From: Phycicoccus sp. CSK15P-2
GTDB lineage: Bacteria; Actinomycetota; Actinomycetes; Actinomycetales; Dermatophilaceae
Length of the DNA: 64,000 nucleotides
Reading direction: 5' to 3'
NCBI RefSeq assembly: GCF_016888005.1
Contig: NZ_JAFDVE010000002.1
Coordinates: 62,001-126,000, forward strand
Part shown: positions 30,130 to 51,108 of the stretch, piece by piece
How positions within the stretch are numbered: position 1 is the stretch's first letter
Layout of the letters: each line of letters starts with the position of its first letter
Translations under genes and position numbers: made by a program
The notes under the pieces: generated by a model
Seen by the model: the letters and a program-made list of their open reading frames with translations, nothing else
The model's database searches: none
What the model was told of the DNA's origin: nothing

Positions 30130-31257
30130 TCAGGGGCGGTAGCCGGTGGGCTCGTCGCCGAGGTCGACGATGGCCGCGACCGGGCCGCCGCCGTCCGGGC
30201 CCTGGTGCGCCGCCGACACCGACACGAACACCGCCGGGTCGCCGGTGACCGCCGCGGTGACACCGCCGACGGCGGCCTTGATCTGCCGGTGCCAGTGCAC
30301 GTCGGAGTCGTCGAGCATCGCGTTGCGGCGCCCGCGCACGGCCCCGTCCTGGCTCGTCTCGCACTTGAGGAACAGGTTGACGAGCCGGCCGTCCAGGTCG
30401 GTGTGGTGCGGGCGCTCGGGCAGGTCGAGCCCGGCGTCGCGGATGGCCTCCCAGAGCCCGTCCTGGTCGAGGGCGTCCTTCATCACCGAGTGCCCGATGC
30501 GGTAGCGGCCACCGACGCCGCGGGCGTTGCCGACGACGACGACCTGCGCCCGGTCGAGCTCGACGCCGGAGGAGCAGGACGCGACCGACGAGTACAGCGT
30601 CCGGTCGCGCAGGACGTCCTCGTCGCGCGGCATCCCGATCTCGCCGAGGGCGTACGCGATGCCGAGGGCGGTGCCGCCGTTCGAGACGTCCATCGAGGTC
30701 AGCGTGTCCTCGGTGAAGACGTCGTGGCCGCGCGACCTGGCGTCGCGGATGGTGTCGATGGTGAGCAGCGGTGTCTTGGTCTGCACGTAGTGGACGTCGG
30801 CGACGTCGGTGATGCCGGCGCGCTCCATGGCGACCTGCACGGCGTCGGCGACCTTGGTGACCATCGCGACCCTGCCGATGTCCTCGGGCAGCAGCACCTC
30901 GCTCATCGCGAACCCGACCGACAGGCGGGGCTCGTCGGTGGCCACGGCCTGCTCGGCCGGGACGGTCGCGAAGACGGTGGCGTGCGGGCTGATCACGCCG
31001 TCGGTGCCGCCGGACCACACGATGGGGATGTCCTCGACCCGCTCGGGGTCGGCGCCCTTGTCGACGAGCAGCTCGCGGAAGGCGCGGTCGGCGATGATCC
31101 GGGTGTAGTCGTTGACGCCGCCGTTGCCCTCGGTCTTCCCGATGACGGCGATGACGCGGTCGGCTTGCATGACCCCGGCGTCGATGAGCCTGCCGAGCTC
31201 GGAGGCGTCGGAGACGGAGTGCAGGGGGACCTTGCGGACCTCGATGGCGTCGGGCAC
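30130..31257 (-). CDS. ring-opening amidohydrolase (barbiturase / cyanuric acid hydrolase family)
   Basis: 375 residues from the GTG at 31257, preceded by GAGAGGAAAG. Three homologous subdomains each supply a Lys-Ser pair: [14 protein letters not shown] with [25 protein letters not shown] with [18 protein letters not shown]; and [12 protein letters not shown] with [13 protein letters not shown]. These are the signatures of the AtzD/TrzD/barbiturase family, which opens barbiturate or cyanurate rings. Neighbours (carbamate kinase, uracil-type permease, molybdenum hydroxylase) favour barbiturase, giving ureidomalonate. No biuret or allophanate hydrolase gene, expected for cyanurate use, is present. 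It is the last gene of the minus-strand operon. Confidence 0.87.
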
Positions 31258-31271
31258 GGTGGTCTTTCCTC

Positions 31272-32219
31272 TCAGGTGGGGGTGGGGTCGGGTTCGACGA
31301 CGGTCCCGATGGAGCCGGCGACGGCGTCGGTGATGTGGGTGAGCGAGGTGATGACGCCGCGGGAGCCCCCGGCGGCGACGAACCGGCACACGGCCTCGAC
31401 CTTCGGGCCCATCGAGCCGGAGGCGAACTCGCCGGCGTCGGCGATCGCGCGGAGCTCGGCCAGGGCGACCCGGCCGAGGTCGCGGTGCTGGGCGGTACCG
31501 AAGCCGACGGCGGCGTGGTCGACGTCGGTGGCGACGACGAGGACGTCGGCGGCCACGGCACGGGCGAGGACGGCGGCGGTGAGGTCCTTGTCGACCACGG
31601 CCTCGACCCCGCGCAGCACGCTGTCGGCGCCGCGGACGACGGGGATGCCGCCCCCGCCGGACGACACGACGACGTAGCCGGCGTCGAGCAGGGTGCGGGC
31701 CGCGGCGACGTCGAGCACCTCGAGCGGTTCGGGGGAGGCGACGACGCGGCGCCAGCCCTTCTCGCCGCGGTCCTCCCAGGTCTGTCCGTGCTCGACCATG
31801 CGTCGGGCGTCCTCGGGCGGCAGGAACCGCCCGATGGGCTTCGTCCGGTGCTCGAAGCCGGGGTCGCCGCGGTCGACGAGCACCCGCGTCACGAGCGCGG
31901 CGACCGGGTGGGTCAGGCCCGCGTCGGCCAGGGCGCCGTCGAGGGCATCGAGGATCGTGAAGCCGAGCGTGCCCTGCGTCTGGGCGCCGCACCAGTCCAG
32001 CGGGACGGGCGGGACGACGTGCGCGGCGAGCTCGTTCTTCACGAGCAGGTTGCCCACCTGGGGGCCGTTGCCGTGGGTGACGACGAGCTCGTGCCCGGCC
32101 GCGACGAGCCGGGCCGCGGCGGCCATCGCTCCGGTGACGGCGGCGATCTGTGCCTCCGGCGTCGCACTGCCGTCGGGGCCGGTCATGGCGTTCCCGCCGA
32201 GGGCCAGCAGGACCCGCAT
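31272..32219 (-). CDS. arcC: carbamate kinase
   Basis: 315 residues. [67 protein letters not shown] and [13 protein letters not shown] are all conserved carbamate kinase motifs. It makes ATP from carbamoyl phosphate and ADP. No arginine deiminase genes are nearby. Instead the locus holds a ring-opening amidohydrolase and the three oxamate-carbamoyltransferase-like genes, so the carbamoyl phosphate probably derives from an acylurea, as with AllK/YbcF in the allantoin pathway. The stop is 14 bases before the amidohydrolase start. Confidence 0.93.
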
Positions 32220-32221
32220 CG

Positions 32222-33424
32222 TCAGCCCGCCCCGTCGGCGGCGTCGGCCGCATCGGTGGCGTCGGCCTCGTCGAGCCAGGCGCGGACCGCGGCGCCGTGC
32301 TGGTCCAGCCCGGGCGGTGGCAGGTGGGTCTCGCGTCCGCCCCCGAAGGCGTTGTCGTCGAACCTGAGCGGTGGGCCGGGCAGCTCGATGGTGCCGAGCA
32401 CCGGGTGCTCGACCGGGACGACGAGGCCCTGGGAACGGGTCTGGTCCCAGTCGTAGACCTCGTCGAGGCTGCGCACCTTGCCCGCGGGGATGCCCAGCTC
32501 GGCGAGCCGGGCCAGCAGGTCCGGTGCCGACCAGGACGCGAACGCGGAGTCGACGACCTCGACGAGGTGGTCGCGGTTCGTGACCCGCAGCGCGTTCGTG
32601 GCGAGCAGCGGCTCCCGCGGGTCGATGTCGAAGGCCTCGGCGAAGCGGACCCACAGCCCCTGCGAGCCGATGGCGACCTGAACGGGGCCGTCGGAGGCGT
32701 GGAACAACCCGTACGGGGCGAGCGAGGGGTGGTGGTTCCCCTGGGCGCGGCCGACCTGGCCCGCGACGGTGTACGCCGTCCCCTGGAAGGCGTGGACCCC
32801 GACGACGGAGGCCAGCAGCGACGTCCGCACGACCCGGCCCCGGCCGGTGACCTCGCGCTCGCGCAGGGCCGCGGCGACGCCATAGGCGCCGTGCAGCCCG
32901 GCCAGGAGGTCGCCGATGGGGACACCGACGCGCTGCGGCTCCTCCGGGCCCGGCCCGGTGACCGCCATGAGGCCGGCCTCTCCCTGGGCGATCTGGTCGT
33001 AGCCGGGGCGCCCGCCCTCGGGGCCGTCGTGGCCGAAGCCGCTGATGGACAGCACGACGAGGCCGGGGTTGAGCGCGTGCATCCGCTCGACGTCGAAGCC
33101 GAGCCGGTCGAGGACGCCGGGGCGGAAGTTCTCGACGAGGACGTCGGCGTGCCGGAGGAGCCGGGTCAGGGTGTCGCGGCCGTCGTCGGACTTCAGGTCC
33201 AGGACGATCGACTCCTTGTTGCGGTTGCACGAGAGGAAGTACGTCGAGACGGGGTCGTCCTCGGGGCCGACGAACGGCGGTCCCCATCCGCGGGTGTCGT
33301 CGCCGGTCGGGGACTCGACCTTGACGACCCGCGCGCCGAGGTCGCCGAGCAGCATCGCGGCGTGCGGCCCGGCGAGGGCACGGGAGAGGTCGACGACGGT
33401 GATGCCGTCCAGGGGCCCGGTCAC
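32222..33424 (-). CDS. class III (CaiB/BaiF) CoA-transferase
   Basis: 400 residues from the GTG at 33424. [57 protein letters not shown] and [19 protein letters not shown] are standard. The catalytic Asp is Asp172 in [16 protein letters not shown], aligning with Asp169 of formyl-CoA transferase. The family moves CoA between carboxylic acids. In this operon it could activate malonate or malonamate released from barbiturate breakdown, which is inference. It overlaps the HyuB-type gene by four bases. Confidence 0.88.
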
Positions 33425-35430
33425 GGCGTGGGCCGTCCGTCGAGCCAGTCGACGTCGGCGGTACCGGCACCACCGGACAGCCGGGCGTAGCCGGGGCCGC
33501 GGTCGAAGAACGGCTGCTCGCCGCGCGCCTCCCGCAGCTCGGTGCGCAGCGCGTCCGACGCCTCGGTGTCGAGCACCGGGTCGTCCTTCGTACCGGACGC
33601 GACGACGCCGTAGTCGGCGCGGGCGCCGTCGAACGACACCTTGCCCCAGCGCAGGTCGCGCTCGACCTCGTCGTACGGCCGCTCCACCGGGTCGCCCCAG
33701 CCACCGCCCCCGGTCGTCCGGATCCGGATGACCTGGCCTGCCTTCACGGGCTCGGCGTCGGCGAGGGCGTCGACGACCCGCTCGTCCGGGCCGCCGAGGT
33801 CGACCGTCACCTCGAACGGCCGCCCGGCCTTGCCGCCCTTGACCCCCCAGCACGCGAGAATCGACCGGTCGGCGATCGACATGAAGTGCGCGTCGGCGAG
33901 CATCCGGATGTGCTTCTCGTAGCCGAGCCCGCCGCGGTGGCGCCCGGCGCCGCCGGAGTCGACGGCGAGCCCGAGCCGCTCGACCCGGAACGGGAAGCGC
34001 GACTCGGTGAACTCGGTCGGCAGGTTGCGGCTGTCCGGGACGACGTGGATCGTGTCCTCGCCGTCGGCGTAGTAGCGGCCGCCGGAGCCACCGCCGAGGA
34101 CCTCGCGCATGAGGTAGTCGTCGCCGTTCGCGTCCTTGCCGTACACGCCGGTGTACCGGATGGTCTCCTGGTCGGCGGGCATCCGGCCGTCGACCGCCTT
34201 CGCGACGACGCCGGCCAAGACGCCGAGCAGCCGCAGGATGACGAAGGTGCGGGCGTTCGTCGGGGCCGGGTGCACCGGGGTGAGCAGCGTCCCCTTCTCG
34301 GGGAAGCGCATCTCGATGAGCGGGACGACGCCCTCGTTGACGTCGAGCTCGGCCATCCGCTCGGGGGAGTCGGCGAGGTTGCGCAGGACCGGGGCGAGCC
34401 ACTTCTTGAGGAAGTTGCCGCCGACGTAGTCACCGCAGTGGTTGATCGGGCCCTTGGCCTGGGCGCCGGTGCCGGTGAAGTCGACGATGATCCGTGGGCC
34501 GCCGTCGCCGGGGCCGGGGCCGCCGGCGCTCGTCTTGGTCAGCGTGATCCGCTGGGTGTGCAGCATCGGCTCGTCGACACCGTCGTGCTCGGCGTAGTCC
34601 TCCCAGACGTACGTGCCGTCCGGGATCTTGCCGAGGATCTCGCGGCGGTAGGTCTCGGTCGTCGCGTCGAGGATGGCGTCGAAGGCGGCCTCGACGGTGT
34701 CGCGGCCGTACCGCCCGAACAGCTCGCCGAGCCGGCGCGCGCCCATGAGGCACGCCGAGCACTCGGCGTCGAGGTCGGCGGCCAGACTGTCCGGCATCCG
34801 GCTGTTGCGGGTCATGATCCGCAGCGCGGCCCGGTTGGGCACCCCGGCGTCCCAGAGCTTGATGGGCGGGACGGCCAGGCCCTCCTCGTGGACCGACGTC
34901 GCGTTGCTCGGCATCGAGCCCGGGACGGAGCCGCCGATGTCGTCGTGGTGGCCGAAGGCCTGGACGAACGCGACGACCGCGCCGTCGTGGAACACCGGGA
35001 CGGTGACGCACAGGTCGGGCAGGTGGCCGATGCCTCCCTCGGACTCGTAGACGTCGTTGTGGAAGTAGACGTCGCCCTCGCGCATCGTGTCGACGGGGAA
35101 GTCGCGGACCACGGGGTGGACCAGCGCCGAATAGCTGCGGCCGGTCAGCTTGCGCAGCTGTCGGTCGTGGATGCCGGCGCGGAAGTCGTGGGCGTCGCGG
35201 ATCATCGGGCTGCGGCTCGTGCGGGCGATGGCGGTCTCGACCTCCGTCTCGACGCTCGCGAGCGTGCCCTGGATGATCTCGACGAGGACGGGGTCGACGG
35301 CCGAGTCGGGTGCGGTGAGGCGGCCGCCGTGCTCATACGTCGTGGGCAGGCCGGCGGGGTTGGCGGGCGCGGCGGCGAGGTAGGCCTCGAGGTCGGTGAA
35401 CGGGTCCGGGACGGGTGCGGTGGTGCTCAT
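33421..35430 (-). CDS. hyuB: hydantoinase B / oxoprolinase family subunit
   Basis: 669 residues. DPVLVEIIQGTLASVETE, ISRSPMIRDAHDF-like text (ARTSRSPMIRDAHDFRAG), GDVYFHNDVYESEGGIGHLPD, AFGHHDDIGGSVPGSMP, RIIVDFTGTGAQAKGPINH and GGAGRHRGGLGYEK are characteristic of HyuB. With HyuA it forms ATP-dependent cyclic-amide hydrolases (5-oxoprolinase, N-methylhydantoinase) or, in other branches, acetone/acetophenone carboxylases. Which chemistry applies cannot be decided here. Its ATG overlaps the hyuA stop (ATGA), indicating coupled translation. Confidence 0.88.
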   Translation of the reverse strand: MSTTAPVPDPFTDLEAYLAAAPANPAGLPTTYEHGGRLTAPDSAVDPVLVEIIQGTLASVETEVETAIARTSRSPMIRDAHDFRAGIHDRQLRKLTGRSYSALVHPVVRDFPVDTMREGDVYFHNDVYESEGGIGHLPDLCVTVPVFHDGAVVAFVQAFGHHDDIGGSVPGSMPSNATSVHEEGLAVPPIKLWDAGVPNRAALRIMTRNSRMPDSLAADLDAECSACLMGARRLGELFGRYGRDTVEAAFDAILDATTETYRREILGKIPDGTYVWEDYAEHDGVDEPMLHTQRITLTKTSAGGPGPGDGGPRIIVDFTGTGAQAKGPINHCGDYVGGNFLKKWLAPVLRNLADSPERMAELDVNEGVVPLIEMRFPEKGTLLTPVHPAPTNARTFVILRLLGVLAGVVAKAVDGRMPADQETIRYTGVYGKDANGDDYLMREVLGGGSGGRYYADGEDTIHVVPDSRNLPTEFTESRFPFRVERLGLAVDSGGAGRHRGGLGYEKHIRMLADAHFMSIADRSILACWGVKGGKAGRPFEVTVDLGGPDERVVDALADAEPVKAGQVIRIRTTGGGGWGDPVERPYDEVERDLRWGKVSFDGARADYGVVASGTKDDPVLDTEASDALRTELREARGEQPFFDRGPGYARLSGGAGTADVDWLDGRPTP

Positions 35431-37553
35431 CGCGCGTCCTCCTGCCGGTCGACCCTGGTGATGACGAGGTTGCCCCAGGTGTCGACGCGCACGGCGAAGC
35501 CGGGGTGCACCGGGACGGTCGAACCGAACTCCTCGACGACCGCCGGGCCGGTGAAGGTGTCGCCGGCGCGCAGGTCGGGGCGCCACAGGACGGGCGTGTC
35601 GAGGTACCCGTCGCCGGGGTCGAAGCACACCGGCCGGACGCCCGTCCGCCCCGGCACCGCCTGCATGGTCGGAGGTGTCACGTCGTCCCGGGTGGGGAGA
35701 GGCCGGGGCTCCGGCCGGGTGATGGGCCCGACCCCGGTGACCCGCAGGTTGACCCACTCGACGTGCTGGCTCGGGTCGTCGCGGAAGTCGTACCCGTAGA
35801 GCCGCCGGTGCTCGTCGTGGAAGCGTCCGGCCACCTCGTCGGCCCACGCGGCGTCGGCCTCCCCCGCCCCGGCCGGCACCCGCACCTCATACGCTTGGCC
35901 GAAGTAGCGCAGGTCGGCGGTGCGGACGAGCTCGTGCTGCTCGGCGGCGAAGCCCTCGGCGTCCAACGCCGCCGCGGCCCGCCCGGTGAGCGAGGTGAGG
36001 ACGTCGGCCACGGACGCGAGGTCGAGGCCGTCGTGCCGCGCGACGTGGGTCTGCACGTAGTCGTTGCGGACGTCGACCGTGAGCAGCCCGAAGGCGCTGA
36101 GGTTGCCCGGGTCGAGCGGGACGAGGACGCCGGCCAGCCCGAGGACGTCGACGAGCCGGCACGCGAGCAGCGACCCCGACCCCCCGAACGTCGCGAGCAC
36201 GAAGTCGCGGACGTCGAGCCCGCGCTTCACCGACACCTGGCGCAGCGCGTTCGCCTGGTTCCAGGCCGAGATCTCGAGGATGCCCGCGGCGCAGCGCTCG
36301 AGCTCGAGACCGAGCCGACCGGCCAGCTCGGTCAGGCCCGCCCGTGCGGCGTCGACGTCGAGCGGGATCTCACCGCCGAGCAGGTGCGGGGGGATCCGGC
36401 CCAGGACGACGTGGGCGTCGGTGATCGTCGGGTCGGTGCCGCCGCGGCCGTAGCAGATGGGCCCGGGGTCGGCGCCGGCCGAGTGCGGGCCCACCTTGAG
36501 GGTGCCCTCGGGCGAGACCCACGCGACCGACCCGCCGCCGGCACCGACGGTGACGACGTCGATCATCGGGATCTTGCTCGGGTAGGCGCCGACCGACCCC
36601 TCGGTCGTGAGCGTCGGCTCGCCGCCGAGGACGACCGAGACGTCGGTCGAGGTGCCGCCACCGTCGCAGGTGAGCACCCTGTCGAACCCGGCTCGCTCGG
36701 CCACGAGCGCGGCGCCGAGGGCGCCGGCCGCCGGGCCGGACAGCACGGTCGTGATGGGCTGGTGCACGACCTCGTCGGCCGAGAGCACGCCGCCGTTGGA
36801 CTTCATGACGTAGAACGGCACGGGCCGGCCACCGGTGAAGCCGTCGAGGCGCTCGTGGATGTTCGTCACGTAGCGGCTGACGTCGGGCTTGACCGCGGCG
36901 TCGACCAGCGTCGTCATGGCCCGCTCGTACTCGCGGTACTCGCGTAGCACCTCGCTGCTGATCGAGACCACGGCCTCGGGGTGCTCGCGCCGCAGCACCT
37001 CGCTCATCGCGAGCTCGTGCGCGTCGTTCGCGTACGAGTGCAGGAAGCAGACCCCGATCGTCGTGATGTCGCGCTCGCGGAAGAAGCGCGCGGCGGCCAC
37101 GGCGTCGTCCTCGGAGAACGGGCGGACCTCCGCGCCGGTGACGTCGAGGCGGCCCCGCACGGTGCGCACGGCGTCGGCGGGGACGATCCGCGGCGGCTTG
37201 ACCCAGAAGTAGCTGTTGCCGTACCCGTCCGGGACGGCCTGCCGGGCGATCTCGAGCATGAGCTCGTAGCCCTCGGTCGTGATGAACCCCAGCCGTTCGA
37301 CCTTGCCCTCGAGCAGCTTGTTCGTCGCGACGGTCGTGCCGTGCGAGACGGCCGCGAGGTCGCTGCCCGAGGCGCCCATGACACCGAGGATCTTCTCGAT
37401 CCCCGTGATGAAGCCGTCGGCCGGGTTGCCCGGGGTCGACGGGGTCTTCGTCGTCACGACCTCGCCCGTGCCCTCGTCGACCGCGACGACGTCCGTGAAG
37501 GTCCCGCCCGTGTCGATCCCGACCCGGATGCGTCGTCCGTCCGTCATGCGCAT
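35427..37553 (-). CDS. hyuA: hydantoinase A / oxoprolinase family subunit
   Basis: 708 residues from the ATG at 37553; the ATG two codons on is equally possible and neither has a strong ribosome site. RVGIDTGGTFTDVVAVDE (10-27) is the N-terminal phosphate motif of the acetate-kinase-like ATPase fold. SHGTTVATNKLLEGK, SEVLREYREYERAMTTLVDA, GPAAGALGAALV, TCDGGGTSTDVSVV and GGGSVAWVSPEGTLKVGPHSAG follow, and the C-terminal domain is complete. First gene of the operon hyuA-hyuB-CoA transferase-carbamate kinase-amidohydrolase, all with short overlaps or gaps. Confidence 0.9.
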   Translation of the reverse strand: MRMTDGRRIRVGIDTGGTFTDVVAVDEGTGEVVTTKTPSTPGNPADGFITGIEKILGVMGASGSDLAAVSHGTTVATNKLLEGKVERLGFITTEGYELMLEIARQAVPDGYGNSYFWVKPPRIVPADAVRTVRGRLDVTGAEVRPFSEDDAVAAARFFRERDITTIGVCFLHSYANDAHELAMSEVLRREHPEAVVSISSEVLREYREYERAMTTLVDAAVKPDVSRYVTNIHERLDGFTGGRPVPFYVMKSNGGVLSADEVVHQPITTVLSGPAAGALGAALVAERAGFDRVLTCDGGGTSTDVSVVLGGEPTLTTEGSVGAYPSKIPMIDVVTVGAGGGSVAWVSPEGTLKVGPHSAGADPGPICYGRGGTDPTITDAHVVLGRIPPHLLGGEIPLDVDAARAGLTELAGRLGLELERCAAGILEISAWNQANALRQVSVKRGLDVRDFVLATFGGSGSLLACRLVDVLGLAGVLVPLDPGNLSAFGLLTVDVRNDYVQTHVARHDGLDLASVADVLTSLTGRAAAALDAEGFAAEQHELVRTADLRYFGQAYEVRVPAGAGEADAAWADEVAGRFHDEHRRLYGYDFRDDPSQHVEWVNLRVTGVGPITRPEPRPLPTRDDVTPPTMQAVPGRTGVRPVCFDPGDGYLDTPVLWRPDLRAGDTFTGPAVVEEFGSTVPVHPGFAVRVDTWGNLVITRVDRQEDAR

Positions 37554-37728
37554 GATCCAACCGGTCGCGTGACGGGACCCGCGCTGGCAGATCATGCCGA
37601 CGACCACCCGGTTCGACGGCCACATTCTCCAAGGAGGTCCTCCCGGGCGGCCGCACCGTGCGGCGGCGCCCTCCCGGAGGCGTCCGAGGTGCCTGTCCGG
37701 TCGGAGGGATCGGCACCCCACCGCGTTA

Positions 37729-37745: not shown

Positions 37746-37758
37746 TAGGGTGGCGGGC

Positions 37759-38841: not shown

Positions 38842-38860
38842 CCTGCGGCCCGGTGCCGGG

Positions 38861-42851: not shown

Positions 42852-43351
42852 GCGCGCTCCTCCCGGCGGAGCTCGGCGGCCCGCAGCACGGCCTTGACGA
42901 TGTTCTGGTAGCCGGTGCAGCGGCACAGGTTGCCAGAGATCGCCTCGCGGGCCTCGTCCTCCGTGGGGTCGGGGTGCTCGTCGAGGTAGGCCGTGATGGT
43001 CGTGACGAAGCCCGGTGTGCAGAAGCCGCACTGGAGGCCGTGGCACTCGGCGAGCGCCTGCTGGACGGGCGAGAGGGCGGCCGGGTCGTCGCCGACGCCC
43101 TCGACGGTCGTGATGGCGTGCCCTTGGGCGCTCACCGCGAACATCAGGCATGAGCGCGCGGGCTCGCCGTCGACGAGCACGGTGCACGCCCCGCACACCC
43201 CGTGCTCGCAGCCGACGTGGGTGCCGGTGAGCCCGAGGTCGTGGCGCAGCGCGTCGGAGAGCAGCCGCCGCGCGGGGGCGCTGAGCGTGCGGACCACGCC
43301 GTTGACCTGCAGCGTCATCGGGAGAGGCGCGTCGGCCGCCGGGGCGCTCAT
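42848..43351 (-). CDS. molybdenum hydroxylase 2[2Fe-2S] small subunit (CoxS-like)
   Basis: 167 residues. The ferredoxin-type cluster uses Cys48, Cys53, Cys56 and Cys68 (VGCEHGVCGACTVLVDG). The second cluster uses Cys108, Cys111, Cys143 and Cys145 (CGFCTPGF and NLCRCTGYQNIVKAV). It passes electrons from the Mo site to FAD. The stop overlaps the large-subunit start and its own start overlaps the FAD-subunit stop by four bases. Confidence 0.95.
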   Translation of the reverse strand: MSAPAADAPLPMTLQVNGVVRTLSAPARRLLSDALRHDLGLTGTHVGCEHGVCGACTVLVDGEPARSCLMFAVSAQGHAITTVEGVGDDPAALSPVQQALAECHGLQCGFCTPGFVTTITAYLDEHPDPTEDEAREAISGNLCRCTGYQNIVKAVLRAAELRREERA

Positions 43352-44220
43352 GCCGCCCCCACGGTGACCTCGGTGGTCACCGTGGCGAGGGCCCTGCGGG
43401 TCAGCTCGGCGGCGAGCATCCGGCGGTAGTCGGCACCAGCGTGGATGTCGGAGTCGGGGTCGACGTGCGCGGCCACGGCGTCGGCGACGGCGTCGAGCGG
43501 CAGGTCGTCGACGGGGTGCCCGCCCACGGCGGGCGTGAGGTCGAGGACGTCCGGCACCGGGGTCACCGACACGAAGGACGCCCGCGCACCCGCGACCGTG
43601 GCGCCGTCGACCTGCACGGCCAGGGCCACCCCCGCGAGGGCGTAGTCACCGGACCGACGCGCCGACTCGGTGAACCGGGTGCGGGTGCCGGCCGGGAGGC
43701 GGCCGAAGCGCACGGCGACGACCATCTCGTCGGGTGCCAGGGTCGTCTCGAGCGGACCGACGAAGAAGTCGGCCGCCGCGACCTCGCGCGCCCCGCCCTG
43801 ACCGACGACCTCGACGACGGCGCCGGTGAGGGCCGCGACCGCGGGCATTTCGCCGGCCGGGTCGGCGTGCGCGATGGACCCGACGGTCGTGCCCCGGGTG
43901 CGGATGGCGGGGTGCGCGACGTGCCGGACGGCCTGGCGCAGCAGCGGCAGCGCTGCCGCGGCGCCGTCGTGCCGCTCGAGCCCGGCGTGCCGGACCAGCG
44001 CCCCGACCCGCACGTGCTCGTCGGTGACGTCGAGGCCGTCCAGCCCGGTGACCCCGCCGATGTCGACGAGGTGCCCGGGTGTGGCCAGTCGCATCGACAG
44101 CAGCGGGACGAGGCTCTGTCCGCCGGCGAGGACCTTCCCGTCGGTGCCGACCTGCGCGAGCACCGCCACCGCCTCCTCGACGGTGCGGGGCGCGTGATGG
44201 ACGAACGGTGCGGGCTTCAC
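43348..44220 (-). CDS. molybdenum hydroxylase FAD-binding medium subunit (CoxM-like)
   Basis: 290 residues. KVLAGGQSLVPLLSMR and TVGSIAHADPAGEMPAVA are the two FAD motifs (AGGQS and TxGSxAHxDPAxE). The C-terminal CO_deh_flav_C-type domain contains TRFTESARRSGDYALAGVAL. Order M-S-L matches form II CoxMSL operons. It lies 99 bases downstream of the NCS2 permease gene. Confidence 0.93.
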   Translation of the reverse strand: MKPAPFVHHAPRTVEEAVAVLAQVGTDGKVLAGGQSLVPLLSMRLATPGHLVDIGGVTGLDGLDVTDEHVRVGALVRHAGLERHDGAAAALPLLRQAVRHVAHPAIRTRGTTVGSIAHADPAGEMPAVAALTGAVVEVVGQGGAREVAAADFFVGPLETTLAPDEMVVAVRFGRLPAGTRTRFTESARRSGDYALAGVALAVQVDGATVAGARASFVSVTPVPDVLDLTPAVGGHPVDDLPLDAVADAVAAHVDPDSDIHAGADYRRMLAAELTRRALATVTTEVTVGAA

Positions 44221-44319: not shown

Positions 44320-45819
44320 TCAGGGGCGGGTGTCCCGGTCGGGGTCGCGCGGCCCCCGGGTGCCGGGGTAGCCCTCCTGGCCGAGGTCGTCGATACCGTC
44401 GCTGTCGCCGTACACGTGGTCGCCGACCGAGATCGCGGTGCCCTCGGCGGCGCTGCGCATCTCGGACGGGGCGATGACCCGGGCCAGGTGCCAGCCGACG
44501 ACGACGACGATGGTGCCGAGCGCGATGCCGCTGAGCGAGAAGTTGTCGGTGATCGTCAGCGCGACGTCGCCGATGCCGATGATGATGCCTGCGGCGACCG
44601 GGACGAGGTTGACCGGGTTGCCGAAGTCGACCCCGTTCTCCTTCCAGATCTTCGCGCCGAGCAGGCCGATCATCCCGTAGAGGACGACCGTGATGCCGCC
44701 GAGCACGCCGCCCGGGACGGATGCGACGAGCGCGCCGAACTTGGGGGAGAAGCCGAAGAGGACGGCGACGACCGCGGCGACGTAGTAGGCGGCCGTCGAG
44801 TAGACGCGGGTGGCGGCCATGACGCCGATGTTCTCGGCGTACGTCGTCGTGGGCGAGCCGCCGACGGAGGTGGCGATGACGGTGCCGACACCGTCGGCCG
44901 CGATGGCCCGGCCCATGACCGGGTCGAGGTCGGCGCGGGTCATCTCGGCGACGGCCTTGACGTGCCCGGCGTTCTCGGCGATGAGCGCGATGACGGCCGG
45001 GAGGACGAGGAGGACCGCGGCTATCGAGAACGACGGCGCGTGGATGCCGGCGACCTCGGTGCCGTCGGCGGCGACGGTCGTCGTGGGCGGCGGGCCGAAC
45101 CAGGCGGCGCCGGCGATGCCCGACGTGTCCCAGCGGACGTGCTCGGTGGCCTCGGTCGCACCGCCGAGCACGGAGGTGATCTGCCCGACGGTGTTGTCGA
45201 GGACCCACGACAGGACCGTCCCGAAGACGAGCGCGAGGAAGACGGCGATCCGGCCGACGAAGCCGCGGAACGCGACGGCCACGACGATCGTGAAGAGCAT
45301 CGTGAGGATCGCGACCCACTGGTCCTGCGGCCAGTAGATGCCCGCGACGACCGGGGCCAGGTTGAACCCGATGAGCATGACGACGGCACCGGTGACGACC
45401 GGCGGCAGCACCTGGTGCAGCAGCGAGGAGCCGAGGACGTGGATCGCGACGCCGACGAGCGCGAGCACGACACCCGCGACGAGGATCGCCCCGGTCACCT
45501 CGGCCGAGTCGCCGCCCTGCGCGCGGATGGCCGCGACACCACCGACGAACGACGCCGAGGTGCCGAGGTAGCTGGGGACGCGACCGGAGACGATGAGGAG
45601 GAAGGCAATGGTGGCGATGCCGCTCATGAGGATCGCCAGCTGGGCGTTGAGGCCCATGATGAGCGGGAAGACGAACGTGGCACCGAACATCGCGACGACG
45701 TGCTGTGCGCCGAGGCCGATGGTGCGCGGCCAGTCGAGCCGCTCGTCGGGGGCGACGACCTCCCCGGGGGCGAGGGACCTGCCGTCGCCCTTGAGCTTCC
45801 ATCCGAGACCGAGGGACAT
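44320..45819 (-). CDS. NCS2 family nucleobase permease, uracil (UraA)-like
   Basis: 499 residues, about 14 helices. GLGAQHVVAMFGATFVFPLI (QH at 39-40) is the UraA-type first helix rather than the QxxxxYxG-type of xanthine carriers. VIALIAENAGHVKAV carries the substrate-binding Glu and SVGGSPTTTYAENIGVMA the second. The C-terminal 60 residues are acidic and extend beyond the usual end (GDSDGIDDLGQEGYPGTRG). Uracil import by proton symport is expected. First gene of the permease-CoxMSL-CoxG-amidase operon. Confidence 0.88.
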   Translation of the reverse strand: MSLGLGWKLKGDGRSLAPGEVVAPDERLDWPRTIGLGAQHVVAMFGATFVFPLIMGLNAQLAILMSGIATIAFLLIVSGRVPSYLGTSASFVGGVAAIRAQGGDSAEVTGAILVAGVVLALVGVAIHVLGSSLLHQVLPPVVTGAVVMLIGFNLAPVVAGIYWPQDQWVAILTMLFTIVVAVAFRGFVGRIAVFLALVFGTVLSWVLDNTVGQITSVLGGATEATEHVRWDTSGIAGAAWFGPPPTTTVAADGTEVAGIHAPSFSIAAVLLVLPAVIALIAENAGHVKAVAEMTRADLDPVMGRAIAADGVGTVIATSVGGSPTTTYAENIGVMAATRVYSTAAYYVAAVVAVLFGFSPKFGALVASVPGGVLGGITVVLYGMIGLLGAKIWKENGVDFGNPVNLVPVAAGIIIGIGDVALTITDNFSLSGIALGTIVVVVGWHLARVIAPSEMRSAAEGTAISVGDHVYGDSDGIDDLGQEGYPGTRGPRDPDRDTRP

Positions 45820-45861
45820 GGCGTGACCTTCCTCCGAGGTCCGCGTCCGGGGTGACGCGGC

Positions 45862-46035: not shown

Positions 46036-47370
46036 TCAGATGCCCTTCATCCGATGCACGCGCAGGGCCAGCTCCAGGGTGAGGCGCAGCTGCGGGTCGG
46101 TGGTGAACGGGCCGAGCATCCGCTCGAGCTTCGCGATCCGGTACCGCAGCGTGTTGTAGTGGAAGAACAGCCGCCGGGCGGTCTCGGCGACGTTGAGGTT
46201 GGTGTCGAGCAGCACGGTCAGGGTGTTGCGCAGGTCGGCGTGCTCGGGGACGTCGTCGGTCGCGAGCTCGCCCAGGCTCTCGGTGACGAACCGGCGCAGG
46301 TCGGCCGAGTCGGGCACGAGCGCCAGCAGACGGTTGATGCCCAGCCGGTCGAAGTGCGCGGTCCCCGACCCGCCGTCGACCTGCCGCCCCACACGGACCG
46401 CCGTCAGCGCCTCGTCGTAGGCCCGCGGCAGGTCCGCGAGCGAGGTCACGGTCCGGGACACCCCGGCGGTGAAGGTGCGCCGGCCCCCGCCGCCGTCACC
46501 CCGGACGACCCGCACCAGCTCCCCGACGGGTCGGAGCACGGCGTCCGGGTCGGCGTCGGGTGGAACCGGCAGCAGGACCACGACCTCCTGGCTGAACCCG
46601 GCGACGGCGACGCTGGTGTCCCGGGCCCGCACGGCCTGGGTCCAGGCGCGGACGAAGCGGTCCTGGAGGCTGCGGACCTCGTCGGCGCTGCGGGTGGTCT
46701 CGGCGTCGTTCTCGTCGGTCTCGGCGACGACGACGACGAGCGGGCGGTCGATGTCCCACCCGAGCGACGCCGCGTGCGAGGCTGCGTCGGCGGGGCCGCC
46801 GGCGCGACCGGCCAGGGCGTCCCGGAGGAACTCCGCGCGGTACTTGCCCTCGACCGCGGCGACGGCCTGTTCCTTGGTCATCGCGAGCGCGGCGACGGTG
46901 GCGGCGCGCTCGAGCATGTGGACGTCGGTGGCGGTGAACGCCGGGCCGGGGGAGAAGGCGCCGAGCAGGCCGAGGTCGGAGGAGCCGGCGACGATGCGGA
47001 CGAACGCGCGGGTCGGGTCGGCCGGGCCGTCGGCGTCGCGCCGGCCGACGGGCTCGTCCTCGACGACGAGCCGGCCGGTCCGGTCGAAGCACGGCAGCGA
47101 GGCCGGGTCACCGCCGTCGACGGCACCGGCGGCGGCGAGGACCCGCCCGTCGGTGGTCGTGAGGACGGCCGCGCCGGCGAAGAAGCCGGCGACGGCGTCG
47201 GCGATCTCGGCCAGGCCGCCACCGTCGAGGACGACGCCGACGAGAACCCGGTGGACCTCGTCCTCGCGCTGCAGGAGTGCGCGCTGGTGCTCGACCAGCC
47301 GGGCGAGTGCCGACCGGTCGGCTGGCAAGGTGTGGGCGTCCTCGCGCTCATCGTTGGCAAGTCTGCCCAT
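46036..47370 (-). CDS. PucR family transcriptional regulator
   Basis: 444 residues from the ATG at 47370; an earlier in-frame ATG at 47433 would overlap the divergent gene. The N-terminal part has a GAF/PucR-like sensor region (VLTTTDGRVLAAAGAVDGG, ERAATVAALAMTKEQAV). The C-terminal HTH_30 is LNVAETARRLFFHYNTLRYR and IAKLERMLGPFTTDPQLRL. PucR regulators respond to purine or nitrogen catabolites (PucR, AllR-like roles). Sitting between the permease operon and the carbamoyltransferase-like operon, it is the probable regulator of both. Confidence 0.88.
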   Translation of the reverse strand: MGRLANDEREDAHTLPADRSALARLVEHQRALLQREDEVHRVLVGVVLDGGGLAEIADAVAGFFAGAAVLTTTDGRVLAAAGAVDGGDPASLPCFDRTGRLVVEDEPVGRRDADGPADPTRAFVRIVAGSSDLGLLGAFSPGPAFTATDVHMLERAATVAALAMTKEQAVAAVEGKYRAEFLRDALAGRAGGPADAASHAASLGWDIDRPLVVVVAETDENDAETTRSADEVRSLQDRFVRAWTQAVRARDTSVAVAGFSQEVVVLLPVPPDADPDAVLRPVGELVRVVRGDGGGGRRTFTAGVSRTVTSLADLPRAYDEALTAVRVGRQVDGGSGTAHFDRLGINRLLALVPDSADLRRFVTESLGELATDDVPEHADLRNTLTVLLDTNLNVAETARRLFFHYNTLRYRIAKLERMLGPFTTDPQLRLTLELALRVHRMKGI

Positions 47371-47372
47371 CA

Positions 47373-47388
47373 GGCCACTGTAGTGGCC
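47373..47388. promoter_or_regulatory. perfect 16-bp palindrome between divergent PucR and DUF2877 genes
   Basis: GGCCACT-GT-AGTGGCC lies three bases from the PucR start and 18 bases from the divergent ATG at 47406. The whole divergent spacer is only 35 bases, so a protein bound here would affect both transcripts. Autoregulation by PucR is the simplest reading. Confidence 0.55.
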
Positions 47389-47405
47389 CTCACTACCGTC
47401 GCCGT

Positions 47406-48236
47406 ATGCCCCGGACCGGTCTTGCCACGACATCCGACGGCCGGGTGATGCCCGGGGCTCTCTCGCCCCGCACCGCGGACCTCGTCCGCGGCCCCCGCCG
47501 TCCGGCGCTGGTCCTGGGGGCGTCCCGGCACGGCGTGTACCTGGGGCTGGGCCGGCGCGTCCTGCCGGTGCTCACCTCCGATGCCGTCGACCTCCCCGAC
47601 GCCGTGCGTCTCGCCGCCCCGTCGGGTGGGTGCGACCTCGGTGTCGTGGCCGGTGACCGCGCCGTCGTCGGGGCGGGGGCGGTGCGGCTGCCGTCGCTCA
47701 CCGTGCGGGGCGTTCGCACCTGGCGTCCGGCCCGGGTCCGGCCGGTCGACGGCGACGCCTCCCCGGAGGTCGACGCCCTGCTCGGCTCCGCCGTCGCCGG
47801 GGCCCCCGACTGGCTCGCCCGGGGGGTGGCCGAGGCCGCTGCGGCGGCCGACCCCGCCGGTGCGGTGGCCCGGCTCGTCGGGCGCGGTGCCGGTCTCACC
47901 CCCAGCGGCGACGACGCCCTCGCCGGATGCCTGCTCCTGCTCCGCGCCGTCGCGGCCTGTCCGCGCGACCGGGCGGATCAGCTCGCGGCCGCCGTCCGGG
48001 CCCGGCTCGCCACGACGACCGCGGTGTCCGCGGCACTGCTGGACGCCGCCGCCGACGGGTGGGCCGGCCGGGACGTCGTGACCCTCGTCGACGCCACCGC
48101 ACGCGGCGACGTCGACGCGGTCCGGGCCGCCCTCCCCGCGGTCCTCGCCGTCGGGCACACCTCCGGGCGCGACCTCGTGACCGGGGTCCGGGCCACCGCC
48201 GACGTGCTCCACCGGACCGGGAAGGTCGCTGCATGA
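47406..48236 (+). CDS. DUF2877 protein, AllH (YlbF)-like oxamate carbamoyltransferase component
   Basis: 276 residues. The family signature GAGLTPSGDDALAGCLLLLRAV (about 162-183, shown here in part as GLTPSGDDALAG) and a late VGHTSGRDLVTGVRATADVL are present. In E. coli the DUF2877, FdrA and DUF1116 proteins together are required for oxamate carbamoyltransferase activity in anaerobic allantoin use. Here the three genes follow each other with ATGA/GTGA overlaps. The order is H-F-G. The gene starts 35 bases from the divergent PucR gene. Confidence 0.82.
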   Translation: MPRTGLATTSDGRVMPGALSPRTADLVRGPRRPALVLGASRHGVYLGLGRRVLPVLTSDAVDLPDAVRLAAPSGGCDLGVVAGDRAVVGAGAVRLPSLTVRGVRTWRPARVRPVDGDASPEVDALLGSAVAGAPDWLARGVAEAAAAADPAGAVARLVGRGAGLTPSGDDALAGCLLLLRAVAACPRDRADQLAAAVRARLATTTAVSAALLDAAADGWAGRDVVTLVDATARGDVDAVRAALPAVLAVGHTSGRDLVTGVRATADVLHRTGKVAA

Positions 48237-49699
48237 GCACCCACGTCGAGCTGCGCCGCGGCGCGTACCACGACTCCGTGAGCCTGCTGCAGGTCTCGCG
48301 CGCGGTCGCGCGGACCATCGGGGTCGAGGCCGCGCAGGTGGCGATGGCCACCGAGCTGAACGTCGAGGTCCTCACCGGGATGGGCTTCGAGGTCCCGGCC
48401 GGCGCCGGCCCGAACGACCTCGTCGTCGCCCTGCGGGCGGCCGACGACCATGCCCTGGCCGCCGGGCTCGCCGCGGTCGACGACGCGCTCGCCGGGCTGC
48501 GCGACGCGGGCGGTGGCGGTGGTGCCGACACCGAGGTGCCGCCGGCGACGCTCGGGTCCGCGGTCCGACGGTCCGGGGCCGGGCTGGCGCTCGTCTCCGT
48601 GCCCGGGGCGCACGCCGTCACCGAGGCCTACGACGCCCTCGCGGCGGGCGCCTCCGTCATGCTCTTCTCGGACAACGTCGGAGTGGAGGACGAGGTCGCG
48701 CTCAAGGACGCCGCGGCGGCCGCCGACCTCCTCGTCATGGGCCCGGACTGCGGGACCGCCCTCGTCGGTGGGGTCGCACTGGGTTTCGCGAACGTCGTCA
48801 CGCCCGGTGCGGTCGGGCTCGTCGCGGCGTCCGGTACCGGTGCGCAGCAGCTCATGAGCCTGCTCGACGACGCCGGCGTCGGGGTCAGCCACTGCCTCGG
48901 CGTCGGAGGTCGCGACCTGTCGGCCGCGGTCGGCGGGCGCTCCACGCGCCAGGCGCTGCGGGCGATGGCCGCAGACCCCGCCACGGACACCGTCCTCGTC
49001 GTCTCCAAGCCGCCGGACGCCGGCGTCCTGGCCGCCGTCGAGGCCGAGGCCACCACGCTGGGGCTCGATGTCCACTGGGCCACACTCGGCGCCGGACGGC
49101 CCGACCTCACCGCCGCGGCGGAGGCCTTCCTCGCCGCGCGCGGCGCCGACGTCCCGACCTGGCGGGCCACCGTCACCGACCCCGACGCCGAGAACCTCGC
49201 CCGGGGGCGGTCGCTGCGCGGGCTCTTCTGTGGCGGCACACTGGCCCAGGAGGCCGTGCTCGTCGCCGAGCCGGTGCTCGGGCCGGTGCGGACCGACCTC
49301 GACGCCGCGGGCGAGGGGCACGTCGTCCTCGACTTCGGCGCCGACGAGCTGACCCGGGGGCGGGCGCACCCGATGATCGACCCGACGCTGCGGACCGAAC
49401 GGCTGGCGGCCGAGGCCGCCGACCCCACCTGCGGCGTCCTGCTGCTCGACCTCGTGCTGGGGCACGGGGCCCACCCCGACCCGGCGCCCGAGCTCGCGGA
49501 CGCCGTCCGGGACGCCCGGGCCACCGCGTACGCCGACGGCCGCGCGCTGCCGGTGGTGGTCGCGCTCGTCGGTACCGCCCAGGACCCGCAGGACCGCGAC
49601 CGGTGCGTGTCCCTCCTGGCCGGTGCCGGGGCATCGGTGTTCGCCTCGAACGCGGCGGCGGCCCGGCACGCCGTCGCCCTGCTCGGAGGTGCCTCGTGA
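48233..49699 (+). CDS. FdrA family protein, AllF-like oxamate carbamoyltransferase component
   Basis: 488 residues. RRGAYHDSVSLLQVSRAVA is the conserved FdrA N-terminus. SVMLFSDNVGVEDEVALKDA, VMGPDCGTALVGGVALGFAN, GLVAASGTGAQQLMSLL and GVGGRDLSAAVGGRST form a succinyl-CoA-synthetase-alpha-like half. GLFCGGTLAQEAVLV and AHPMIDPTLRTERLAAEA mark the second half. It lacks the C-terminal tail of about 35 residues seen in E. coli FdrA. Joint action with the flanking DUF2877 and DUF1116 proteins is expected. Confidence 0.88.
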   Translation: MSTHVELRRGAYHDSVSLLQVSRAVARTIGVEAAQVAMATELNVEVLTGMGFEVPAGAGPNDLVVALRAADDHALAAGLAAVDDALAGLRDAGGGGGADTEVPPATLGSAVRRSGAGLALVSVPGAHAVTEAYDALAAGASVMLFSDNVGVEDEVALKDAAAAADLLVMGPDCGTALVGGVALGFANVVTPGAVGLVAASGTGAQQLMSLLDDAGVGVSHCLGVGGRDLSAAVGGRSTRQALRAMAADPATDTVLVVSKPPDAGVLAAVEAEATTLGLDVHWATLGAGRPDLTAAAEAFLAARGADVPTWRATVTDPDAENLARGRSLRGLFCGGTLAQEAVLVAEPVLGPVRTDLDAAGEGHVVLDFGADELTRGRAHPMIDPTLRTERLAAEAADPTCGVLLLDLVLGHGAHPDPAPELADAVRDARATAYADGRALPVVVALVGTAQDPQDRDRCVSLLAGAGASVFASNAAAARHAVALLGGAS

Positions 49700-51108
49700 C
49701 CGACCCGCTGCACGGCCTGCTCACCACCGACCCCGTCGTCGCCACGTCGGGCGTGGCGCTCTTCGCCGACGCGCTGCGCGACCAGGCCGTCCCTGTGGCC
49801 GACGCCGGCTGGCGGCCGCCGCTGCCCGGGACCGAGGCCGCGCTCGCCCGAGTCATGGGCGACCCCCGGCGCACGGAGGCCAACGCCACCGCCGTCGCGC
49901 GGATGACCGCCGCCGAGGCCGTGCTCGTCGACGTCGCACCGGCCGCCGACGTCGTGGGGCTCGAGCGTGGGACGTTCCTGCACGCCGGCCCGCCGGTCGA
50001 CTGGGAGCGGGCGTCCGGGCCGATGCGCGGTGCGCTCATCGGGGCGGTTCTGCTCGAGGGGCTGGCCGACGGCCCGGAGGATGCCGAGCGGCGTCTGGCC
50101 GCGGGCGACTTCACCCTCGAGCCGTGCCACCACCGCGGCGGCGTCGGCCCGATGGCCGGCGTGGTGAGCCCCTCGATGTGGCTCTACGTGCTGCGCGACG
50201 ACGTCCACGGCAACACCTCGTGGTGCTCGCTCAACGAAGGGCTCGGCAAGGTCCTGCGCTACGGCGCGTACGGCCCTGAGGTCATCGACCGGCTGCGCTG
50301 GATGAGTGGTGTCCTCGGTCCCGTCCTCCAGCAGGCCGTGCGCTCGACCGGGCCGGTCGACATCCGTGCCATCGTGGCGCAGATGCTCCAGATGGGCGAC
50401 GAGGGGCACAACCGCAACCGGGCCGGGTCGCTCATGCTGCTGCGCGAGCTCCTCCCCGGCATGATCACCGCGCACGCCTCCAGCGCCGACGTCGCCGAGG
50501 CCGTGCGGTTCGCCGGGGCCAACGAGCACTTCTTCCTCAACCTCGGCATGCCGGCCTGCAAGCTCGCGACGCTCGCCGCCGAGGGCATCCCGGGCTCGAC
50601 CGTCGTCACGACGATGGCCCGCAACGGCACCGACTTCGGCATCCGCGTCTCGGGCACCGGAGAGCGGTGGTTCACCGGCCCGGCGAACACCCCGGACGGC
50701 TTGTTCCTCGGCGACTTCGGCCCGGACGACGCGAACCCGGACATCGGCGACTCCGCGATCACGGAGACCGGCGGCATCGGTGGCTTCGCGATGGCCGCGG
50801 CCCCCGCGATCGTCCGGTTCGTCGGCGGCGACGTGCCGTTCGCGCTGGCCGCCACGAAGCGGATGTACGAGGTCACCGTGGGTGAGCACCCCGCCTACCA
50901 GGTGCCGGTTCTCGGGTTTCGTGGGACGCCGGTCGGCATCGACACCGCGCTCGTGTGCCGCACCGGCGAGCTGCCGCAGATCAACACCGGCATGGCGGGC
51001 CGGGTCGCCGGCACGGGCCAGGTCGGGGCGGGTCTCGTGACGCCCCCGGCCGAGTGCTTCACCGCCGCGGTCGAGGCACTGGCGGCGGCGGTCCCGAGCC
51101 GGTCCTGA
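49696..51108 (+). CDS. DUF1116 protein, AllG (YlbE)-like oxamate carbamoyltransferase component
   Basis: 470 residues from the GTG at 49696 (overlapping the fdrA-like stop). FHRGGVGPM-type text appears as CHHRGGVGPMAGVVSPSMW, then CSLNEGLGKVLRYGAYG, QMLQMGDEGHNRNRAGS, FLNLGMPACKLATLAAEG, VTTMARNGTDFGIRVSG and GDSAITETGGIGGFAMAAAP, all strongly conserved in DUF1116. In E. coli its counterpart supports phosphorolysis of oxalurate to oxamate and carbamoyl phosphate. The absence of allantoin genes here suggests another acylurea substrate. Confidence 0.88.
   Translation: MTDPLHGLLTTDPVVATSGVALFADALRDQAVPVADAGWRPPLPGTEAALARVMGDPRRTEANATAVARMTAAEAVLVDVAPAADVVGLERGTFLHAGPPVDWERASGPMRGALIGAVLLEGLADGPEDAERRLAAGDFTLEPCHHRGGVGPMAGVVSPSMWLYVLRDDVHGNTSWCSLNEGLGKVLRYGAYGPEVIDRLRWMSGVLGPVLQQAVRSTGPVDIRAIVAQMLQMGDEGHNRNRAGSLMLLRELLPGMITAHASSADVAEAVRFAGANEHFFLNLGMPACKLATLAAEGIPGSTVVTTMARNGTDFGIRVSGTGERWFTGPANTPDGLFLGDFGPDDANPDIGDSAITETGGIGGFAMAAAPAIVRFVGGDVPFALAATKRMYEVTVGEHPAYQVPVLGFRGTPVGIDTALVCRTGELPQINTGMAGRVAGTGQVGAGLVTPPAECFTAAVEALAAAVPSRS

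Follow-up and report, generated by a model that had tools for sequence, protein, structure and literature searches.

The window analyzed here is a stretch of 64,000 nucleotides from Phycicoccus sp. CSK15P-2 (contig NZ_JAFDVE010000002.1, positions 62,001 to 126,000), with a G+C content of 73%. Positions 30130-51108 of the window contain genes for a ring-opening amidohydrolase, a CoxMSL-type molybdenum hydroxylase, a carbamate kinase and three proteins of the DUF2877, FdrA and DUF1116 families, which are the families of Escherichia coli AllH, AllF and AllG. It is likely, with a probability of roughly 0.77, that this locus serves the oxidative breakdown of pyrimidines, ending in a phosphorolytic step with ATP recovery, as judged from gene content and conservation. 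Genes were called from codon usage and then checked against Pfam and NCBIfam. An earlier inspection of this DNA, based on the letters alone (below, the sequence-only reading), had listed the genes in two divergent blocks. The gene calls and family matches bear out that list, and all the named genes are present in the region; a nickel-transporter gene of the NicO family was not mentioned there. For every locus gene, the E-value of the best Pfam match is at most 4.5e-21, the value for PucR, and sizeable portions of the gene set are found together again in many other genomes. Thus, the gene set is not explained by chance.

The minus-strand block contains, in order, an NCS2 permease, CoxM, CoxS, CoxL, CoxG, an amidase, HyuA, HyuB, a CoA-transferase, carbamate kinase and the ring-opening amidohydrolase. 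The NicT/NicO nickel-transporter gene (37759-38841, plus strand; PF03824, 260 bits; NF052500, 432 bits, just under the cut-off of 450) lies between the amidase and HyuA and splits this block into two halves. It is not taken as part of the pathway and is considered an insertion. At the same place, two related loci (L024 and L061; loci and genomes are given by our L and G numbers) have other genes. The AllH, AllF and AllG genes are adjacent on the plus strand, with 4-base overlaps. The gene for a PucR-type regulator (46036-47328, minus strand; PF13556 and PF17853) is divergent from them across a 119-base gap.

The ring-opening amidohydrolase (30130-31257, minus strand) belongs to the AtzD/Bar "Toblerone" family (PF09663, 470 bits). 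Its closest solved protein is barbiturase 5hwe, with 657 bits, while cyanurate hydrolases reach at most 324 bits. It is 82% identical to the protein of Rhodococcus erythropolis NBRC 15567 (L060), and the nearest barbiturases elsewhere, from Phycicoccus, show 91-92% identity. Five positions separate barbiturase from cyanurate hydrolase specificity in the AtzD/Bar family, and the barbiturase signature (Group VI) is given as Asn, His, Lys, Val and Ser/Ala at AtzD positions 195, 321, 325, 345 and 346 (Peat 2013, PMC3758960). The window protein has N193, H323, K327, V347 and S348, the complete barbiturase signature. Among 98 aligned sequences including that of the window, 84 have NHKVS, 6 NHKVA, 7 NHKVG and 1 RTRGG; the strict signature is present in 90. 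By sequence, the window ring-opener is a barbiturase (Bar). The NCBIfam model NF052395, "cyanuric acid amidohydrolase", matches it with 466.6 bits against a cut-off of 360, and this name is probably wrong. Cyanurate as the substrate, whose preference would have spoken against the sequence-only reading, was rejected in view of the five barbiturase-type residues.

AllH (47448-48236; PF11392, 89 bits), AllF (48233-49699; PF00549; NF004760 FdrA, 371 bits, under the cut-off of 433; solved relative 3dmy) and AllG (49696-51108; PF06545, 322 bits; solved relative 3clq) are encoded together, as expected of a three-subunit transcarbamylase. A gene for a catabolic carbamate kinase is present in the same locus (31272-32219, minus strand; PF00696; NF009007, 286 bits, cut-off 266; arcC TIGR00746, 329 bits, under the cut-off of 358). 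Compared with the E. coli proteins, the identity is 38% for AllF, 47% for AllG, 34% over 114 residues for AllH and 40% for carbamate kinase. E. coli AllFGH, beside the carbamate kinase AllK, is described as interconverting oxalurate and phosphate with oxamate and carbamoyl phosphate (Kim and Kim 2024, PMC11326118); the three genes had been put forward as candidates for the E. coli enzyme by CanOE in 2012 (PMC3364942). A word search of PMC11326118 finds "barbitur", "uracil" or "ureidomalon" nowhere in its text. Ureidomalonate (H2N-CO-NH-CO-CH2-COO-), the product of barbiturase, is oxalurate (H2N-CO-NH-CO-COO-) with one more CH2, and therefore its phosphorolysis would give malonamate and carbamoyl phosphate. 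In some loci AllF and AllG are in one frame and are called as a single open reading frame: L162, about 2048-5056 (minus strand, 1018 amino acids), L170, 9624-12602 (minus strand), and L171, 7883-10861 (plus strand; 1001 amino acids each of the latter two). Such single frames occur in both the barbiturase-linked and the AllD-linked type.

The phylum sample consists of 396 Actinomycetota genomes. AllG is present in 49 of them and the AtzD/barbiturase family in 27. The barbiturase signature is found in 22 of these 27, and AllG is present in all of the 22. The other five genomes of the family (two with RTRGG, two with a gap and GGG, and one partial) have no AllG. Among the remaining 374 genomes, without the barbiturase signature, 27 have AllG. 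The association is significant by Fisher test (7e-23, uncorrected for kinship). The two genes are on one contig in 17 of the 22, with their starts 3.7 to 44 kb apart, and on different contigs in five. The 22 genomes are spread over families f1, f3, f16, f33, f39 and f47 in the sample's own numbering.

A second set was composed of 80 loci of near barbiturases; the genome of L017 was left out, so that AllG was counted in 79 genomes. AllG is present in 72 of them (37/39 and 35/40). It is missing in three metagenome-assembled genomes (MAGs; L013, L037 and L071) and in all four Rhodococcus (L060, L064, L077 and L081). The near set and the phylum sample are not independent by kinship.

In a survey of distant families, one or two stretches of 20 kb were analyzed in each of 14 genomes (L138-L152). 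All 14 have Bar, AllF and AllG together, accompanied by carbamate kinase in 12. The NCS2 permease is observed in 11, that is, not in L143, L146 and L147 (in L143 and L146 other genes are in its place). CoxM is observed in ten, one of them distant (L147), and of the four genomes in which it is not seen, three have stretches that stop at AllG or close to it. Most often the genes are arranged as PucR, divergent Bar, permease, carbamate kinase, AllH, AllF, AllG, CoxM, CoxS, CoxL and CoxG. A regulator or other genes are sometimes interspersed, and in G075 the Cox genes are between permease and carbamate kinase, unlike the usual order. In L192, genes for a deaminase-like protein, permease, carbamate kinase, AllHFG, CoxMSLG, amidase, HyuA and HyuB follow each other in one direction. 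Some distant operons (L148 and L149) have a cytosine-deaminase/AtzC-like gene, under the curated cut-offs, between Bar and the permease.

Of the 80 near loci, 71 have carbamate kinase immediately upstream of Bar and in the same orientation. In L021 it is 1.6 kb away from Bar, and in L068 it is far away; it is not seen in L017, L060, L064, L065, L077, L079 and L081. Several loci of this set are cut off by a contig edge, where the absence of a gene counts for nothing. AllHFG, PucR, the permease and CoxMSL are arranged as in the window in L161, L162, L163, L164 and L168, and in a slightly altered form in L165, where no PucR was called, and in L167, where other genes are interspersed. The whole set is found within 43 kb of an Embleya linear plasmid of 5.7 Mb (L202). 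In Nonomuraea, Bar is about 42 kb from PucR, the permease, CoxMSL and AllHFG.

Two further observations concern the neighbors of barbiturase. In family f39 loci, a DddP-like M24 protein (435 bits, under the cut-off of 600) is encoded beside it, as at L148:13707-15005 (minus strand). In L144, at about 11530-12900 (G118:C1:1233528-1234896), two adjacent frames beside barbiturase match the first and the second half of D-hydantoinase; they appear to be a split or interrupted gene.

AllG trees were built from the AllG genes of the stretches examined, a part of those in the 49 and 72 genomes. Sequences that form part of a longer one were removed, which reduced 66 rows to 47; all 31 rows from barbiturase genomes are then on one side of one branch (97/91). 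In a tree of 49 rows, which omits the very long branch L176, a single branch (98/91; 96% of 200 bootstrap trees) likewise separates all 33 such rows from the rest. In the 47-row tree L176 is outside the barbiturase group. E. coli AllG is clustered with those of G380 and G388 with 100/100 support. In the whole sample of 396, only these two genomes have AllD, the ureidoglycolate dehydrogenase that makes oxalurate, over the cut-off, and AllD is near AllG in them. AllD is over the cut-off in none of the 22 barbiturase+AllG genomes; weaker relatives of the AllD family are found in five (G051, G118, G279, G299 and G308). The window genome shows no AllD match at E 0.001. The marks of an oxalurate-specific transcarbamylase (OXTCase) are thus not found here: there is no AllD to feed it, and AllG is not grouped with that of E. 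coli. Allantoin or oxalurate breakdown as the main role of AllFGH was rejected because AllD is over the cut-off in none of the 22 genomes.

The sequence-only reading had proposed a search for co-occurrence in genomes without allantoinase. The co-occurrence stood, with AllG in 22/22, and the window genome has no allantoinase over the cut-off. The expected lack of allantoinase did not hold in general, since it is over the cut-off elsewhere in the genome in 14 of the 22. The AllD genomes G380 and G388 carry no allantoinase over the cut-off. This comparison is thus not useful for discrimination.

An oxidative pyrimidine route was reportedly worked out in R. erythropolis. The Rhodococcus locus contains Bar, the NCS2 permease, CoxMSLG, PucR and the CoA-transferase (L060 and L064), and in Rhodococcus sp. 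P-2 (L159) HyuAB is seen whole downstream of CoxG. AllG is absent in all four Rhodococcus genomes, and no carbamate kinase is found in the locus stretches examined. Instead, an amidase-signature gene is directly downstream of Bar in all four (L060:11248-12726, plus strand). It encodes a candidate ureidomalonase, as suggested by its position. The Rhodococcus amidase is 38-42% identical to the amidase of the Nocardioides loci, whereas 15 other rows share 66-81% with that of L032. The two were therefore not accepted as orthologs and are taken to have different specificities.

The route via barbiturase and ureidomalonase leads to malonate and urea (Soong 2001/2002, as cited in PMC3758960), and urease is expected along with it. 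Urease was searched for in 49 genomes (that of the window and 48 of the 79, chosen and mostly isolates) and in 28 others. All four Rhodococcus genomes have urease, in two copies each. In the same search, urease is over the cut-off in 5 of 45 barbiturase+AllG genomes, and in the other search it is so in 3 of 21 further genomes with this pair. The window genome has no urease alpha match, so that the urease expected with a hydrolytic route is not seen there. The pattern fits the production of urea in Rhodococcus and not in the others.

The minus-strand genes CoxM (43348-44220; FAD subunit, PF00941 and PF03450), CoxS (42848-43318; [2Fe-2S] subunit, PF01799 and PF00111) and CoxL (40446-42851; molybdenum subunit, PF20256 and PF02738) are followed by one for a CoxG-type protein (39760-40449; PF06240). 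The best two solved relatives of CoxL are quinoline 2-oxidoreductase (1t3q) and 6-hydroxypseudooxynicotine dehydrogenase (7dqx), with CO dehydrogenases next. The presence of all three subunits and a CoxL nearest to heterocycle hydroxylases are as expected of an N-heterocycle molybdenum hydroxylase. Form I CoxL of aerobic CO dehydrogenase has the active-site loop AYXCSFR with a Cys ligand. At this place, 20 of 22 aligned rows, including the window, read PYRGAGR (one other variant and one gap), and a CO dehydrogenase identity was rejected on this ground. NCBIfam NF040766 names the window CoxL aerobic CO dehydrogenase, which is probably a misnomer. CoxMSL is proposed to be a uracil/thymine 6-hydroxylase.

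The NCS2 nucleobase permease (44320-45819, minus strand; PF00860, 239 bits) is RutG/UraA-like (RutG, 348 bits, under the cut-off of 759). The window genome has neither RutA nor dihydropyrimidinase over the cut-off; among 28 genomes, RutA is over the cut-off in none and dihydropyrimidinase in two. The oxidative pyrimidine route, claimed in the sequence-only reading, is thus supported by the identity and signature of barbiturase, the relatives of CoxL, the permease, the deaminase-like gene of some operons and the lack of RutA and dihydropyrimidinase.

The nitrilase-superfamily amidase (38861-39760, minus strand; PF00795, 162 bits) has E50, K124 and C160 in the nitrilase motifs, which we take to be the catalytic triad. 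It is proposed to be a malonamate amidase. A nitrilase is linked in 7 of the 80 near loci and an amidase-signature enzyme in 21, including the four Rhodococcus; both together are seen in none. The class III CoA-transferase (32222-33424, minus strand; PF02515, 380 bits; NCBIfam equivalogs all far under the cut-off) probably activates malonate. A carboxyltransferase gene is present in 17 of the 80 loci, in several cases adjoining the CoA-transferase, and therefore malonyl-CoA fits as the end product.

HyuB (33421-35430, minus strand; PF02538; best NCBIfam match caprolactamase beta, far under the cut-off) and HyuA (35427-37625, minus strand; PF01968 and PF05378) are the beta and alpha subunits of an ATP-dependent cyclic-amide hydrolase. 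The true start of HyuA may be some 30 codons downstream of the called one; its relatives are about 700 amino acids long (median 702). Beside the barbiturase clade in the 47-row tree there is an AllG group of five members, with weak support (83/32), from genomes without an AtzD-family match. In three of them (L181, L182 and L183) the genes CoxM, CoxS, CoxL, HyuA, HyuB, AllF and AllG are in a row, and no carbamate kinase is seen there. The row of L183 also has CoxG, AllH, an amidase, an acyl-CoA ligase and a 5'-nucleotidase. The remaining two members are on short contigs with a permease, AllF and AllG. Because of these rows without barbiturase, and because characterized members of the HyuAB family are described as acting on cyclic amides (PMC8453981), HyuAB is probably a second, ATP-dependent ring-opener. 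A natural guess for its substrate is 5-methylbarbiturate, derived from thymine.

The proposed pathway is as follows. The nucleobase permease would import uracil, and probably thymine too. CoxMSL would oxidize uracil at C6 to barbiturate, and barbiturase would open the ring to ureidomalonate. AllF-AllG-AllH would then split ureidomalonate with phosphate, yielding malonamate and carbamoyl phosphate, in analogy to the cleavage of oxalurate by E. coli AllFGH. From carbamoyl phosphate and ADP, carbamate kinase would generate one ATP and carbamate, with release of ammonia and CO2. The nitrilase-type amidase, or the amidase-signature enzyme in relatives, would hydrolyze malonamate to malonate and a second ammonia, and the CoA-transferase would convert malonate to malonyl-CoA. 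HyuAB would serve as the second ATP-dependent ring-opener, for example for 5-methylbarbiturate. We infer every substrate except barbiturate, which is backed by the specificity residues and by the identity to a protein named as barbiturase; for the key phosphorolytic step, the chemistry is likewise inferred. The phosphorolysis with ATP recovery, put forward in the sequence-only reading, is supported by the 22/22 co-occurrence, the conserved operons, the absence of AllD and the contrast in urease with Rhodococcus. That reading also knew of no described pathway joining these steps. This agrees with the open-licence literature: among the matches listed, no paper joins barbiturase or cyanurate hydrolase with AllFGH, and subscription papers are mostly outside that scope.

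Several observations weigh against this pathway. The AllHFG genes of the window form a divergent unit of their own. The stretches examined in G279 (L146) and G304 (L147) show no carbamate kinase, and L147 has distant Cox genes (30-47%). In Nonomuraea, no carbamate kinase is found within 15 kb of Bar. Three MAGs have barbiturase without AllG, their completeness not being given. In two distant operons examined, the permease appears closer to xanthine than to uracil permease, under the cut-off. Purine traffic into AllFGH may occur in the 14 genomes with allantoinase. As for urease, one sub-threshold match in each set, G409 (partial) and G269, may be real, and the Fisher value for the contrast with Rhodococcus (6e-4) is overstated since Rhodococcus is one lineage. 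AllFGH behind CoxMSL-HyuAB in L181-L183 is fed by something other than barbiturase, and if HyuAB belongs to the main route, its ATP cost would use up the ATP regained.

In an unlikely, though not negligible, alternative, HyuAB is the main opener of the hydroxylase product, barbiturase acts on a side substrate and AllFGH acts on the product of HyuAB. The rows of CoxM-S-L-HyuA-HyuB-AllF-AllG in three genomes without an AtzD-family match, the position of HyuAB after CoxG in Rhodococcus sp. P-2 (L159) and the cyclic-amide substrates described for the family (PMC8453981) are in its favor. However, it is barbiturase, and not HyuAB, that consistently accompanies AllG in the distant operons, although several stretches end before a possible position of HyuAB.

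It is rather improbable that the amidase hydrolyzes ureidomalonate to malonate and urea while AllFGH and carbamate kinase serve oxalurate from purines. Such a ureidomalonase route is described (cited in PMC3758960), the window and some of its relatives have a linked amidase gene, and allantoinase is over the cut-off in 14 of the 22 genomes. On the other hand, AllD is over the cut-off in 0/22 and without a match in the window genome, which also has no allantoinase over the cut-off and no urease match. AllG accompanies barbiturase across families, often in an operon, whereas Rhodococcus, the hydrolytic case, is without AllG.

Mere neighborhood, in which the genes share PucR regulation but act in separate nitrogen-salvage routes, is very improbable. 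The two units are divergent in the window, and such genomes possess further nitrogen routes, for example that of allantoinase. Nevertheless, distant families have single-strand operons with short overlaps and a largely constant order (G075 deviates), and the barbiturase-linked AllG forms a separate group. A locus for s-triazines, with a ring-opener acting on cyanurate, can practically be set aside: the NF052395 match over its cut-off and the cyanurate-type module with AllHFG and carbamate kinase on plasmids, shown below, are outweighed by five specificity residues that are all of barbiturase type and a barbiturase as the closest solved protein by 333 bits, and cyanurate breakdown needs no molybdenum hydroxylase.

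Plasmid searches with the pathway's two key proteins both match the same enterobacterial records. For barbiturase, 2 of 132 records show 60-80% identity and 130 are lower; apart from the top two, the matches listed belong to the enterobacterial module. Two IncX5 plasmids have, in order, a ring-opening amidohydrolase, an NCS2 permease, AllH, AllF, AllG, carbamate kinase and a LysR regulator, as in the 7.6-kb operon at L199:5910-13551 (NZ_OQ821180.1). The hydrolase of the first of these plasmids carries the cyanurate signature RTRGG. A search of 72,556 plasmid records gives 49 with a match to the 7.6-kb unit, 47 of them over at least 80% of its length. The hosts are Citrobacter (18), Klebsiella (10), Enterobacter (8), Leclercia (5), Raoultella (4) and four others with one record each, one of which is named E. 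coli. At the same sensitivity, the unit has no match in the 20,395 records of an E. coli collection. The sources given are mostly human clinical, with some showers and one drain; a link to chlorinated cyanurate disinfectants is only a thought. In the 49-row tree, AllG of the plasmid module is outside the barbiturase clade, beside G038 and G361. The module shows the same logic with another ring and thus supports AllFGH as a partner of AtzD-family enzymes.

We incline slightly to the wider view that AllFGH is a general carbamoyl phosphorolase for linear ring-opening products of the form H2N-CO-NH-CO-X-COO-, split into groups by the ring and turning the ureido group into carbamoyl phosphate. The groups would act on oxalurate (E. 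coli, with AllD), ureidomalonate (Actinomycetota, with barbiturase) and carboxybiuret (enterobacterial plasmids, with a cyanurate-type hydrolase, to carbamoyl phosphate and allophanate), with a fourth behind CoxMSL-HyuAB. Ureido waste would then become carbamoyl phosphate, and ATP where carbamate kinase is present, replacing urease, and AllFGH, seen as an oxalurate enzyme in the literature found, would become a wider enzyme class. If the pathway proposed for the window is true, it is a new energy-conserving branch of pyrimidine catabolism across several Actinomycetota families, and it explains why such an oxidative uracil degrader needs no urease. To our knowledge, the activities of uracil/thymine dehydrogenase and ureidomalonase are known without genes; CoxMSL would be a candidate for the former and the Rhodococcus amidase-signature gene for the latter. 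The NCBIfam names for the barbiturase (cyanurate hydrolase) and the hydroxylase (CO dehydrogenase) are likely annotation errors. Apart from the locus, five consecutive small genes with signal-peptide-like starts are found at 24674-27005 of the window (minus strand), perhaps a family of secreted proteins.

Among known systems, the Rhodococcus pathway shares with the window a barbiturase of 82% identity, with CoxMSLG, the NCS2 permease, PucR and the CoA-transferase at the locus, and HyuAB in L159. It differs in having an amidase-signature enzyme and urease, without AllG or a carbamate kinase at the locus, while the window has AllHFG and carbamate kinase without a urease match. The cyanuric acid pathway (AtzD/TrzD, AtzE, and AtzF or BiuH) starts with the same ring-opening family, and on plasmids it has a version with AllHFG and carbamate kinase. 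The window, in contrast, has barbiturase residues instead of cyanurate residues, and AtzE, AtzF and BiuH are not among the genes called in the locus with Pfam and NCBIfam. The nearest published case is that of MAGs of nitrifiers (PMC12625717), in which allFGHK is described beside genes for linear ureido compounds (biuret/triuret). The authors report no cyanurate hydrolase in these MAGs and read AllFGH as oxalurate degradation, and a word search of the text finds no "barbitur". E. coli AllFGH/AllK, the oxamic transcarbamylase and carbamate kinase of the anaerobic allantoin pathway (PMC11326118), is different in its context, as the window trio is linked to barbiturase and a hydroxylase, has no AllD and has its AllG in a separate group. 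The same three subunit families and a carbamate kinase are nevertheless present in both, and the E. coli substrate, oxalurate, shares the H2N-CO-NH-CO- end with ureidomalonate.

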